A stretch of 64,000 nt of DNA from Gloeobacter morelensis MG652769 (GTDB taxonomy: Bacteria; Cyanobacteriota; Cyanobacteriia; Gloeobacterales; Gloeobacteraceae): positions 2,108,001 to 2,172,000 of the forward strand of contig NZ_CP063845.1 in the NCBI RefSeq assembly GCF_021018745.1, written 5' to 3'. A model generated the notes under the pieces. That model was not told the DNA's origin. It made no database searches and was given only the letters and a program-made list of their open reading frames with translations. The position numbers and the translations under genes are program-made. Shown here piece by piece: positions 39 to 3,917 of this stretch; within the stretch, counting starts at the first letter, position 1, and every line of letters starts with the position of its first letter.

Positions 39-245
39 CTACTGATCTCGAAACTCTTCATACCAGGCCATCTGGATTGCTTCGAGTATGCCTTCGTTCG
101 ATTGTTTTGGGTCGTCGCCAAAATCCGCAAGTCCGGTGACCCAGCGGTGCAGGTCGATAAAGCGCACCGTGAGCGGGTCGACCTTGGGATGGGCCGCCAG
201 AAGAGCGAGGGCAATCTCTTCGCTGTCTTGCCAGGTGAGCTTCAT
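39..245 (-). CDS. iscX: IscX-like Fe-S cluster assembly protein
   Basis: A complete 68-residue protein that matches the size and pattern of IscX (YfhJ), the small acidic protein that binds IscS and iron and tunes Fe-S cluster assembly in the cytoplasm. Visible family signatures are the N-terminal LTWQDSEEIALAL, the VRFIDLHRWV core, the acidic patch ADFGDDP, and the C-terminal SNEGILEAIQMAWYEE. It starts with ATG at 245; no strong ribosome binding site is visible. No other isc gene is in the window. It is divergent from glmS, and the 137 bases between them must hold both promoters, although none is clear. The assignment rests on recalled similarity to the E. coli protein. Confidence 0.88.
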   Translation of the reverse strand: MKLTWQDSEEIALALLAAHPKVDPLTVRFIDLHRWVTGLADFGDDPKQSNEGILEAIQMAWYEEFRDQ

Positions 246-382
246 GGGCGCGCGGTAGCCACTGTTAGTTATTCTACGCCCAGGTCAAACCCGTGGCCCG
301 GGGCAGAAATTCAAAGGAAAAACTGGTAACTTGCCCGGGGCATTAACTTAGAATCGATCCGAATCTTCCGGGGGTGGAGTGT

Positions 383-2212
383 ATGTGCGGAATCGTGGGC
401 TACATCGGCGGACGGACGGCTTTGCCTTTTCTGGTGGACGGTTTGAAACGGCTGGAGTACCGCGGCTACGACTCGGCGGGGATCGCCACGGTCGGCGAGT
501 CGGGCCTGGAGTTGGTGCGCGCCAAGGGCAAACTGCACAATCTCGAAGAAAAACTCAACGGCGTGGCGCAGTCCACCGGCACCGTCGGCATCGGCCATAC
601 CCGCTGGGCCACCCACGGCAAGCCCGAGGAGCACAACGCCCACCCCCACACCGACGCGAGCGGCCGGCTTGCGGTCATCCAGAACGGCATCATCGAGAAC
701 TACGCCGAACTGCGCCTGCGCCTTAAAGAGCGCGGCTGTCTATTTAAGTCCGAGACCGACACCGAGGTGATCCCGCACCTGATTGCCTGCCGTCTGGCCG
801 GGCACAGCCTTTTGGAGGCGGTGCTCGCGGCGGTGGGCGAATTGAAGGGCGCTTTTGCGATCGCCGTGGTGAGCGCCGATTTTCCGGACGAACTGGTCGT
901 CGTCCGCCAGCAGGCGCCTCTGGTAATTGGTTTTGGCGCGGGGGAGAACTATTTCGCCAGCGACGTTCCGGCGATTGTCTCCCACACCACCCGCGTGCTT
1001 ACCCTCCAAGACGGCGAATGTGCCCGCCTCACCCGCACCGAGGTCCAAGTCCACGACTTTTCGGGAGCACGGCTACGCCGCACCCCGCGCTCGCTCAACT
1101 GGAACCCGAGCCTGGTTGAAAAGCGCGGCTTTCGCCACTTCATGCTCAAAGAAATTCACGAGCAACCCGGCGTCATCCGCGACACGCTCGAAGACCGCAT
1201 CGGCGATGCGACCGGCCCCATCCGCCTGGGCCTGTCGAACGACCTGTTTGCCGACCTGGAGCGCATCTATATCATCGCCTGCGGCACCAGCTGGCACGCT
1301 TCGCTGGTGGGCAAATATCTCATCGAAGAACTGGCGGGCATTGCGACCGAGGTCAACTACGCCTCGGAGTTTCGCTACTGCCCGCCGCCTCTGAACCCTC
1401 GCACCCTGGTCATCGGTGTGAGCCAATCGGGCGAGACGGGCGACACCAACGCGGCCTTGACGGCGGCGAAGGCCAGGGGTGTGCGCCTTCTGGGCATCAC
1501 CAACCGCCCTGAGAGTTCTTTGGGCGCGCTGGTGGGCGAACTCATCGACACCCGCGCCGGTATGGAAATCGGCGTAGCCGCGACCAAGACCTTTACAGCT
1601 CAACTGGTCGCGTTTTATCTGCTGGCGCTGCACCTGGCCCACCTGCGGGGCACCCAGCCAGGCGAGCGCATTCGGGAAATTCTGATCGGCCTACAGCAGT
1701 TGCCGGCCCAGATCGAGGGGATTCTCGATACCCAGGAGCGCTACATCACCGAGCTAGCCCGCGAATTCGATGCGACCCGCGACTTTATCTTCATCGGCCG
1801 CGGCCTCAATTACCCCATCGCCCTCGAAGGTGCCCTCAAGCTCAAAGAAATCTCCTATATTCACGCCGAAGGCTATCCGGCGGGCGAAATGAAGCACGGC
1901 CCGATTGCGCTGCTCGACAGCGAAGTACCGGTGGTGGCCATCGCCGTGCCGGGCAAAGTCTACGAGAAGACCCTCTCCAACGCCCAGGAAGCCAAAGCCC
2001 GCGACGCGCGGCTGATAGGCGTGGCCCCCCTCGACGAACCGGCGGCGGTTGAAACGTTCGATCAGATCTTGCCGGTGCCGGTAGTCGAGGAAATTCTTTC
2101 GCCGATATTGACGGTCGTGCCTTTGCAGTTGCTCGCCTACCACATTGCCGCCCGCCGCGGTCTCGACGTGGACCAGCCAAGAAATTTGGCCAAAAGCGTC
2201 ACCGTCGAATAA
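383..2212 (+). CDS. glmS: Glutamine-fructose-6-phosphate aminotransferase (isomerizing)
   Basis: GlmS makes glucosamine-6-phosphate from fructose-6-phosphate and glutamine, the first step to UDP-GlcNAc. The protein has 609 residues, normal for the family. I chose the ATG at 383 rather than the in-frame GTG at 374 because the class II glutaminase needs its catalytic Cys at position 2 (MCGIVGYIGG), and GGGGGTGG lies just upstream. The N-terminal half is the Ntn-hydrolase glutaminase (HTRWATHG motif). The C-terminal half carries two SIS sugar-isomerase domains (CGTSWHASL, SQSGETGDT, EGYPAGEMKHGP), and the protein ends in the typical RNLAKSVTVE tail. This conserved 3' end is the recognition site of TnsD in Tn7-type elements, which matters because a Tn7-like mini element sits immediately downstream. 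Confidence 0.97.
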   Translation: MCGIVGYIGGRTALPFLVDGLKRLEYRGYDSAGIATVGESGLELVRAKGKLHNLEEKLNGVAQSTGTVGIGHTRWATHGKPEEHNAHPHTDASGRLAVIQNGIIENYAELRLRLKERGCLFKSETDTEVIPHLIACRLAGHSLLEAVLAAVGELKGAFAIAVVSADFPDELVVVRQQAPLVIGFGAGENYFASDVPAIVSHTTRVLTLQDGECARLTRTEVQVHDFSGARLRRTPRSLNWNPSLVEKRGFRHFMLKEIHEQPGVIRDTLEDRIGDATGPIRLGLSNDLFADLERIYIIACGTSWHASLVGKYLIEELAGIATEVNYASEFRYCPPPLNPRTLVIGVSQSGETGDTNAALTAAKARGVRLLGITNRPESSLGALVGELIDTRAGMEIGVAATKTFTAQLVAFYLLALHLAHLRGTQPGERIREILIGLQQLPAQIEGILDTQERYITELAREFDATRDFIFIGRGLNYPIALEGALKLKEISYIHAEGYPAGEMKHGPIALLDSEVPVVAIAVPGKVYEKTLSNAQEAKARDARLIGVAPLDEPAAVETFDQILPVPVVEEILSPILTVVPLQLLAYHIAARRGLDVDQPRNLAKSVTVE

Positions 2213-2238
2213 TCACTCCGTTGACCTTATTTTGCGAC

Positions 2239-2305
2239 TGTAGGGAAATAATAAAATTGTACAACGGATAATAAAGTCGGACCGTAAACAATAAAGTCGT
2301 ACAAC
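2239..2305 (+). repeat. Compact (right-end-like) TnsB-site array
   Basis: Terminal TGT at 2239 followed by three direct repeats of the ATAAA(G/A)T(C/T)G(T)ACAAC type at 2251-2265, 2271-2280 (only the first half well kept) and 2291-2305, spaced exactly 20 bp apart. The third copy is preceded by AC, giving ACAATAAAGTC, the same 11 bases as the core of the Tn7 TnsB site. Overlapping tandem sites in a short span are typical of the Tn7 right end, which is the end that faces glmS. Confidence 0.75.
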
Positions 2306-2306
2306 G

Positions 2307-2330
2307 GATGCGCCCGCTTGCGGGCGCATC
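2307..2330. repeat. Perfect GC-rich hairpin inside the mini element
   Basis: An 11-bp perfect inverted repeat: GATGCGCCCGC at 2307-2317, a TT spacer, then GCGGGCGCATC at 2320-2330. It directly follows the third TnsB-like site. There is no T-tract, so it is not a classical terminator. It may block read-through from glmS or be a remnant of lost cargo. Confidence 0.6.
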
Positions 2331-2438
2331 TCGAGGGTCTGCCCGGGCGGGGCGGGAAGCGGGAAGTTTGTGGCGCGGCGCTTTGGGGTTCTCGCCAGGG
2401 TCCGGGGCTGGACCGTGGCACCGGCAAAAGCTTCGCGC

Positions 2439-2607
2439 GTTGTACGACTTTATTATCTTGCTGCGGCACGGGATCTGGCGAATCGCGGCACGAAAAGAAC
2501 GGGGGGCGGGGCTGTTGTACGACTTTAATTGCCCACAGGCCGCACCGGGACCGCGAGGGTACGGCCTTTCGAGTGCCGACGTTGTACAACTTTATTGTTC
2601 CCGCACA
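2439..2607 (-). repeat. Extended (left-end-like) TnsB-site array
   Basis: Three inverted copies of the site, GTTGTACGACTTTAT at 2439-2453, GTTGTACGACTTTAA at 2514-2528 and GTTGTACAACTTTAT at 2581-2595, followed by TGTTCCCGCACA to the element end at 2607. Spacing of about 70 bp between sites over about 160 bp resembles the three spaced TnsB sites of the Tn7 left end. Confidence 0.75.
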
Positions 2608-2703
2608 GCGACTGTAGAAAAAAAGTTGGCTAATGAATAAATTTGGCATTCAAGGAGTTACTAAAAAAACCTACAACTACGAAAACCCGAAGTGACCGTG
2701 AGG

Positions 2704-2954
2704 TCAATCCTGCCAGAAAAATGCCAAACTGTCCTTGTGTACCGGGCATTGCATGACGTAGCCTATCGAGTCTACGAGAAAAGATATATACTCACCACCG
2801 GATATTTGGTAGACAAAGACCATTTTTGAACCACACTTTGGACAATTGGGGTACTCCGCATTCTGAGGCCACCACGGCCAACCCGACAGCTTGTCGCCTG
2901 AAAACGTCAGGCCGAGGATTTGATTGTAAATATCGTACAAATTATCATTGTTTA
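2704..2954 (-). pseudogene. 3' remnant of a DUF1963 (YwqG-like) gene, cut by IS982
   Basis: The minus-strand frame encodes about 80 residues ending in a tail typical of DUF1963/YwqG-like proteins: KLSGWPWWPQ, then CPKCGSKMVFVYQI, then GYVMQCPVHKDSLAFFWQ. Full-length relatives are several times longer. The reading frame runs open without a good start codon back to position 2954, where the IS982 end begins, so the 5' part is missing. The rest of the gene is not found on the other side of this IS copy or next to the second copy. The function of the family is not established. Expression is unlikely unless the IS supplies a promoter; an in-frame TTG at 2940 is the only nearby start. Confidence 0.7.
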
Positions 2955-3917
2955 ACGTCAGTTCGGGTTAAGCATTGAGCTGGTCGGCATCAGACGCCAC
3001 CGACGGCTTGTTCGGTTTGTGGCAGTAGGCAATCAACCCACACACCAGGTTCACCAAAAAATTCACTTCGCTGCGATGGCGGGTGTGCTCTATCTGCGAA
3101 ATGTTCTTCAACTGGTCATTGATTGCTTCGATGATCCCGCGCTTGCGCAACAGCAGTTTGTCCGTCATCACCATCAGCCGATTGGTCATCTTGCGCCGCA
3201 ACTTGGTGATCAGCGCCATGCCCAGCTCCTCGCGCAATTGCCTGCCAAGCTTGCTGCTGATGTAGCCGCGGTCGCCAAACACTTTGCCGTGCAAGTCTTT
3301 GAGCAGTTCAGGCACAGGCTTGCGATCGTCAGTGTTCCCAGCCGTCACGCTCATCGCCAGCAATTCGCCGCGCTCATTGACCACCAAGTGCAGCTTGAAG
3401 CCGTAAAACCAGCCCACCGAGCTTTTGCCCCAGGCGGCCAGACCGACAAAGACTTTGTGGGCGTGGACGCGGCGCACATGGCAGACGGCAAGTGGAGTCG
3501 AATCGATAAAACTGATGCCGGTGCAGGGGCCAAAACAGTGGCGCAGGTAGGCACTGAGCGGCATAAGGGTAGAGGGCATCCACTCGACGAAGCGCGCGTA
3601 GCTGACCAGTCCAGGAAAAGCGCTTCGCCAGTAAGCGCAGACCATTTCGGTGTAGAAGGCCTTGAAGTGGCGGTAGGCGGATTGGTGAAAAGCAATCAGA
3701 ATCGTCAGGATTTCGCTGAGGCAGAGTCGGCGTGGCCGTCGCCTGTGTCGCAGGCCATCGTCGAGCAATTGTTGCTGCCAGAGCGGTTCGAAGCGTTGGC
3801 AGAAGTCATCGACATGGCAAAAGAGCGCTTCTAGACTGGGCATAGCGAGCGGTCCGTGGCTTGTGATGTGCTAATCCCAGCCTAGGCGGACCGCCTTTCC
3901 TTATCCCGAACTGACGT
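2955..3917 (-). mobile_element. IS982-family insertion sequence, copy 1 (no target duplication)
   Basis: A 963-bp element with 18-bp terminal inverted repeats ACGTCAGTTCGGG(T/A)TAAG that carries one transposase. Its ends were fixed by comparing it with the second copy at 54898-55860. The flanks here are TTGTTTA on the left and TCTCCTT on the right, so there is no target-site duplication, whereas copy 2 has a perfect one. With the decapitated DUF1963 gene on its left, this suggests that a deletion or recombination event involving the IS removed neighbouring DNA. Confidence 0.88.
2968..3843 (-). CDS. IS982 family transposase
   Basis: A 291-residue DDE transposase, full length for IS982. The putative catalytic triad is D114 (in FIDSTPLAV), D191 (in FGDRGYIS) and E239 (in [11 protein letters not shown]). 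The N-terminal third is helical and carries basic runs (RHRRRPRRL) suited to DNA binding. It reads on the minus strand and fills almost the whole IS. The protein is identical to the one at 54911-55786, so both copies are probably intact and recently moved. A long opposite-strand frame over the same stretch is a coding shadow. Confidence 0.93.

Follow-up and report, generated by a model that had tools for sequence, protein, structure and literature searches.

Immediately downstream of glmS in Gloeobacter morelensis MG652769 lies a 369-bp element that runs from a TGT tip at 2239 to an ACA tip at 2607 (Table 1). It is flanked on both sides by an exact 5-bp duplication, GCGAC, a trait of the Tn7 family, and its two tips match as a terminal inverted repeat (TIR) at 22 of 27 positions (23 of 28). 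Six TnsB-type sites occupy the ends. On the glmS side, three plus-strand cores starting at 2251, 2271 and 2291 form a compact tandem set in 20-bp steps, and at the far end three minus-strand cores starting at 2581, 2514 and 2439 form a spread, inverted set; these right- and left-end sets span 67 and 169 bp, respectively. Five of the six differ from the consensus by zero to two mismatches, and the middle right-end site has four, only its AATAAAGTCG half being retained. The sites include the palindrome GTTGTACAAC. All that the first-pass annotation had read here, namely the matching termini, the duplication, the six sites and the lack of a coding frame inside, held on re-examination, and the observation of an element with these tips, this duplication and two site sets is confirmed.

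The element interior matched no known gene or RNA, and the spacer between the two site sets showed no remnant of tns or cargo genes. Three ORFs (99-140 aa) overlap the element, extending beyond one or both of its ends; none of them matched Pfam, and one of the three matched PHROGs at an E-value of 0.019, which we judged to be chance. Since no tns gene was found inside, the element is a derivative and not an autonomous member of the Tn7 family. Scanning positions 2100-3000 gave no terminator-like site and three promoter-like matches (shuffle mean 0.5), of which one lies on the minus strand within the element. Folding of 90 nt including the hairpin listed in Table 1 gave a shuffle z of only -1.66, although its stem is perfect. 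Several other Tn7-like right ends have an inverted repeat at the corresponding place, and of 14 other regions folded, 6 gave z below -2. Separately, an ORF for a DDE transposase (Pfam DDE_Tnp_1_3) lies at 2968-3843, about 355 bp past the element.

The element was set against chance in two ways. The element holds six sites with at most four mismatches; 1000 mononucleotide shuffles averaged 0.042 and never exceeded two, a test that is partly circular since the consensus is one of the element's own sites. Across the window (the whole 64-kb stretch analysed here), 14 pairs of TGT...ACA tips stand 150-2000 bp apart with an exact 5-bp duplication; among these, the element matches at 22 of 27 terminal positions and the next best pair at 12. 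Both the excess of sites over the shuffles and the terminal match of 22 against 12 place the element far from chance. The possibility that the far flank (TGTAGAAAAAAAGTTGGC...) marks an earlier element's right end was also considered and rejected, as its score of 22 was reached in 169 of 1000 shuffles.

Table 1 Features of the element and its surroundings (positions in the window, except for the last row, which gives positions in locus L049).
Feature	Position	Strand	Basis or remark
glmS	374..2212	+	SIS and GATase domains in Pfam; TnsD presumably binds at the 3' coding end
Target duplication GCGAC, glmS side	2234..2238	.	Read from sequence
Ends-only Tn7-family element, 369 bp	2239..2607	+	Tips, sites, duplication, comparison with Tn7
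Right end: TGT plus tandem set of TnsB-type sites, 12/32/52 from tip	2239..2305	+	
G+C-rich (73%) spacer, 133 bp	2306..2438	.	No known gene or RNA found
Perfect 11-bp hairpin, immediately inside right-end sites	2307..2330	+	
Left end: ACA tip plus spread set of TnsB-type sites, 12/79/154 from tip	2439..2607	-	
Target duplication GCGAC, far side	2608..2612	.	Read from sequence
L049 end pair	128-1290	.	Tn7-like ends beside glmS enclosing a Uma2-family gene

Likeness to Tn7 and to other right ends behind glmS

As a reference for Tn7, its right end was confirmed in plasmid R721 and both ends were taken from that copy. The two layouts nearly superimpose, in agreement with the Tn7-family assignment of the first pass: like the element, Tn7 has TGT/ACA tips, a 5-bp duplication, a first site at 12, 20-bp tandem right-end sites, three spread left-end sites and, by eye, an inverted repeat inside the right end. 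Site starts in Tn7 are 12/32/53/73 on the right and 12/76/132 on the left, so that gaps between left-end sites are 64 and 56 bp, compared with 67 and 75 bp in the element. To the right end of Tn7, the far tip of the element matches at 20 of 28 positions and the glmS-side tip at 17 of 28, while Tn7's own tips match each other at 22 of 28. The differences lie in content and detail. Tn7 spans 14,067 bp with tnsA-E and cargo whereas the element is gene-less; it has four right-end sites where the element has three, one of them half decayed; the second half of its site reads TTAAACT rather than GTACAAC; and the R721 copy sits in a plasmid. A passage in PMC11406308 holds that the spacing of TnsB sites distinguishes the two ends.

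The position also agrees with Tn7. Its right end is by rule oriented toward glmS, and the element likewise turns its compact tandem set to the gene, with the TGT tip 26 bp beyond the stop codon, as the TnsD route would have it; both the attTn7 position and the orientation proposed in the first pass therefore stand. For Tn7 itself, a passage in PMC2918618 places the insertion about 20 bp past the glmS stop, at a point fixed by TnsD on the end of the gene. Among ten other cyanobacterial right ends chosen within the first 130 bp past glmS, the distance from stop to tip is 23-27 bp in nine and 38 in one; four of the ten (G613, G494, G200, G616) fall below the stricter three-site cut of the survey described next. 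In two further loci (L048 and L049) the tip lies 24 bp beyond the stop.

The survey located glmS in 365 of 388 genomes of the class, and 147 downstream regions were taken from the matches listed; the sample is not random, because places were ranked by likeness to the glmS of the window. Together with the window and two loci found by site pattern, 150 regions were compared; coverage reaches 1 kb or more in 144 of them, 5 kb or more in 114 and 11 kb or more in 94. The element's kind of right end, defined as a three-site set 15-45 bp past the glmS stop with a score of at least 24, recurred in 13 of the 150 regions (10 of the 147 surveyed) and in none of 1221 control windows drawn from these loci; on this score the window reaches 30 and the best control 19. 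By a motif-free measure of 20-bp periodicity, 20 of 149 regions exceed the 99th percentile of controls, the lowest of these 20 looking like chance, and the window reaches 0.62 against a maximum of 0.59 in the 1221 controls. Such agreement in layout, position and recurrence makes it very probable that the locus holds a Tn7-family insertion.

Complete tnsABCD sets lie beside the right end in 5 of the 13 regions (G472, G574, G480, G504, G022). These glmS-targeting elements share with the 369-bp element 20-bp right-end sites of the AATAAAGT type, 23-27 bp past the glmS stop; they differ from it in their tns genes and in that most of their sites end ACT, not AAC. One region (G040) has TnsA and TnsB beside the right end, one (G443) has TnsD alone on the opposite strand, and in another (G439) a TnsD piece lies 11 kb off. 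In G040 (L146) and G500 (L190), the first 100 bp past glmS hold right ends with 20-bp ATAAAACGGTTGRACAATT repeats, and these would answer to a TnsB of another specificity at the shared att site. Sites of the ...GTTGTACAAC type occur in the glmS-adjacent right ends of a Mastigocoleus and a Cyanocohniella MAG and, in looser form, on Nostoc plasmids. In the Mastigocoleus MAG (L048 2040-2740), the right end beside glmS is followed by a CRISPR-like array, seen by eye, with a Cas1-like ORF farther along; that genome gave no TnsD match.

A far end (TIR of at least 16/28) together with an exact duplication was found in the window only among the 150 regions, within the sequence covered; in controls, 2 of 836 windows reach a TIR of 16 and none goes higher. 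Three candidates for a further intact element were set aside. L049 has both ends, 1163 bp between tips, around a single Uma2 gene, with flanks lacking a matching duplication; G427 has both ends 5.5 kb apart, likewise without one; and in G616 the duplication is inexact by one base and there is one right-end site. The G616 candidate (L182) lies 28-188 bp beyond the glmS stop. Its Tn7-like ends, 161 bp overall, carry TGA tips and a TIR that matches at 24 of 28 positions; the flanks read TGTTG/TGTAG (4 of 5), the left sites lie 12 and 79 from the tip, and the G616 genome has no TnsD match.

Relatives, further copies and helper genes

The first-pass annotation had named the same 369 bp in distant strains as evidence against a transposon, and this was not seen. 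In an alignment search of 59 genomes 44 matched, and in the 43 besides the own genome the alignment ends before the element. As for an empty site in relatives, congener G002 does lack the element, but its sequence differs at the spot: by eye it reads ...TTTTGCTGTAGAAAGGCC, against ...TTTTGCGACTGTAGAAAAAAAG expected of a window free of the element, and so lacks GAC as well. Its alignment spans the glmS side only; on the far side, compared by eye, eight bases are common and the contig ends soon after, which makes this a weak comparison. G001 and G003 are not collinear with the window beyond glmS, and a clean empty site was not found among these three genomes. TGTAG occurs near the insertion point in 6 of the 150 loci, 24-26 bp past the stop in G001, G002 and the window; the window's copy forms the tip of the element itself, and TGTAG follows the far GCGAC as well.

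A search for further copies, also suggested in the first pass, turned up none: BLAST with the element against its own genome gave one match only. At up to two mismatches the site pattern matches that genome 15 times, five in the element and ten scattered singly, and a reversed control pattern matches 23 times. The element is short and gene-less, with a TIR and a duplication, as miniature inverted-repeat elements (MITEs) are. Tn3-derived TIMEs and other MITEs are often multi-copy, a trait that the single copy in this genome does not share. Among 386 genomes of the phylum, 99 match the site letters and, among the matches listed, a cluster occurs in the own genome only, in a search confined to these particular site letters; within the order of G427, 2 of 36 genomes match. 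No phage searched held an element-like sequence, and the site pattern had no match in viral contigs. Three Nostoc plasmid records match by the right end alone (E 8e-3). No sister copy in another species turned up in genomes, viral contigs, phages or plasmids, nor did an autonomous element in which both ends match; the closest right ends found are identical at 50/67 positions.

One of these right ends belongs to a TnsAB-TnsC-TniQ element on Nostoc plasmid pC052_C (L206), which shares with the 369-bp element a TGTAG tip and sites at 12/32/52 and differs in its TnsA-TnsB fusion and plasmid location; its left end was not found. In two plasmids of Nostoc sp. C052 (L206, 20001; L207, 10001) the same Tn7-like right end follows the same GCGAT, adjoining tnsAB-tnsC-tniQ in the first and lying in a stretch without annotated tns genes in the second.

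Searching genome contigs by site pattern gave eight stretches, two of which adjoin glmS (L048 and L049). Each of the other six has one site with at most one mismatch and lacks a tandem set resembling a right end; three of them, Enterobacterales loci, have paired palindromes 19 bp apart, and in Rahnella (L053) such a pair of GTTGTACAAC-type sites stands, by eye, upstream of a MerR-like gene. These palindromes would suit a reading in which the repeats arose by chance or regulate glmS and are no transposon at all. That reading is extremely improbable, given that layout, duplication and offset all agree with Tn7, that none of the 43 other matching relatives aligned into the element, and that the shuffle, right-end, far-end and periodicity controls all speak against it.

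Helper genes were sought in the element's own genome, which is 99.96% complete in three contigs. The tns search that the first pass had proposed was run for TnsA, TnsB, TnsAB and TnsD and found none of them. TnsD matched in 1 of 11 genomes, the control G480; TnsAB in 6 of 12 others or controls, most strongly in G005 and G418; TnsA in 3 of 8 (G480, G040, G005); and TnsB weakly, at 28-29% identity, in 3 of 20, a set without a strong control. TniQ likewise gave no match in the own genome, and its controls gave no signal either. By the TnsA, TnsB, TnsAB and TnsD searches, then, a resident matching transposase was not found. A MAG of the Gloeobacter family with 8% contamination (G005, L220) carries a TnsAB 45% identical to that of Nostoc, beside which ATPase (TnsC)- and TniQ-like ORFs were identified by eye; its tnsAB contig has no clustered sites like those of the element.

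Origin of the element and its meaning

Judging by the sites and their placement, TnsB would bind the ends of the element and TnsD would have directed it to glmS. With modest confidence, we lean toward an element that arrived gene-less and was moved in trans, since the duplication and both sets of sites have been preserved and no recognisable tns or cargo gene is present. TnsD would have bound the end of glmS; TnsABC from a helper, such as a plasmid-borne element, that was not found in this genome would have excised an element already without genes; and this would then have landed 26 bp past the stop, its right end facing glmS, and given rise to the 5-bp duplication. A serious possibility, if a somewhat less probable one, is that a larger Tn7-like island inserted with its genes and later lost them by an internal deletion between its ends. 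The same ends and the same duplication would be expected, five other cyanobacteria hold tnsABCD elements next to glmS, and the hairpin bordering the right-end sites, which has counterparts in several of those elements, could be a parental remnant; on the other hand, the deletion would have had to stop just inside each of two retained site sets and leave no tns or cargo residue in the spacer. One single-copy locus accords with movement in trans and with shrinkage in place alike, and that neither a second copy in the genome nor a sister copy in another species was found weighs against movement as a mini-element.

According to passages in PMC2918618, 166 bp at the left and 90 bp at the right are enough for Tn7, and laboratory mini-Tn7, like the element, consists of ends only and uses attTn7 with Tns proteins in trans (passages in PMC2918618 and PMC4321384); it is engineered with inserted genes, whereas the element is natural and empty. 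Tn3-derived TIMEs (PMC4133298) and other MITEs are likewise gene-less and bordered by their parent's ends, and differ in belonging to other transposase families. In the passages of a MITE review (PMC10969869), Tn7 appears for its site choice and in the title of a reference, and titles and abstracts among the literature matches listed contain no natural miniature Tn7 elements.

An empty element might also act on its surroundings. A passage in PMC11406308 reports that Tn7 inhibits a second insertion where a copy is already present, and the sites beside glmS, five of six still near the consensus, could have been kept as a decoy that confers target immunity and closes attTn7 to elements with a matching TnsB. 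This is very unlikely, the element having been found in one genome only, with no sign of selection seen and no matching TnsB known.

As an ends-only insertion of the Tn7 family, the element is a natural counterpart of laboratory mini-Tn7, probably moved in trans. A broader and rather doubtful proposal is that cyanobacteria harbour a natural ends-only class of Tn7 that lives off transient helpers and may immunise attTn7 while residing at glmS; were this true, the 161-bp candidate of G616 would belong to the class. Tn7-type elements, CRISPR-guided ones included, are studied for their genes. A natural element close to the laboratory-minimal ends would show which end sequence suffices in nature, how genes are lost from elements of this type and whether one left empty can guard the glmS site; it also offers a test substrate for the TnsABCD sets that lie beside glmS in cyanobacteria.
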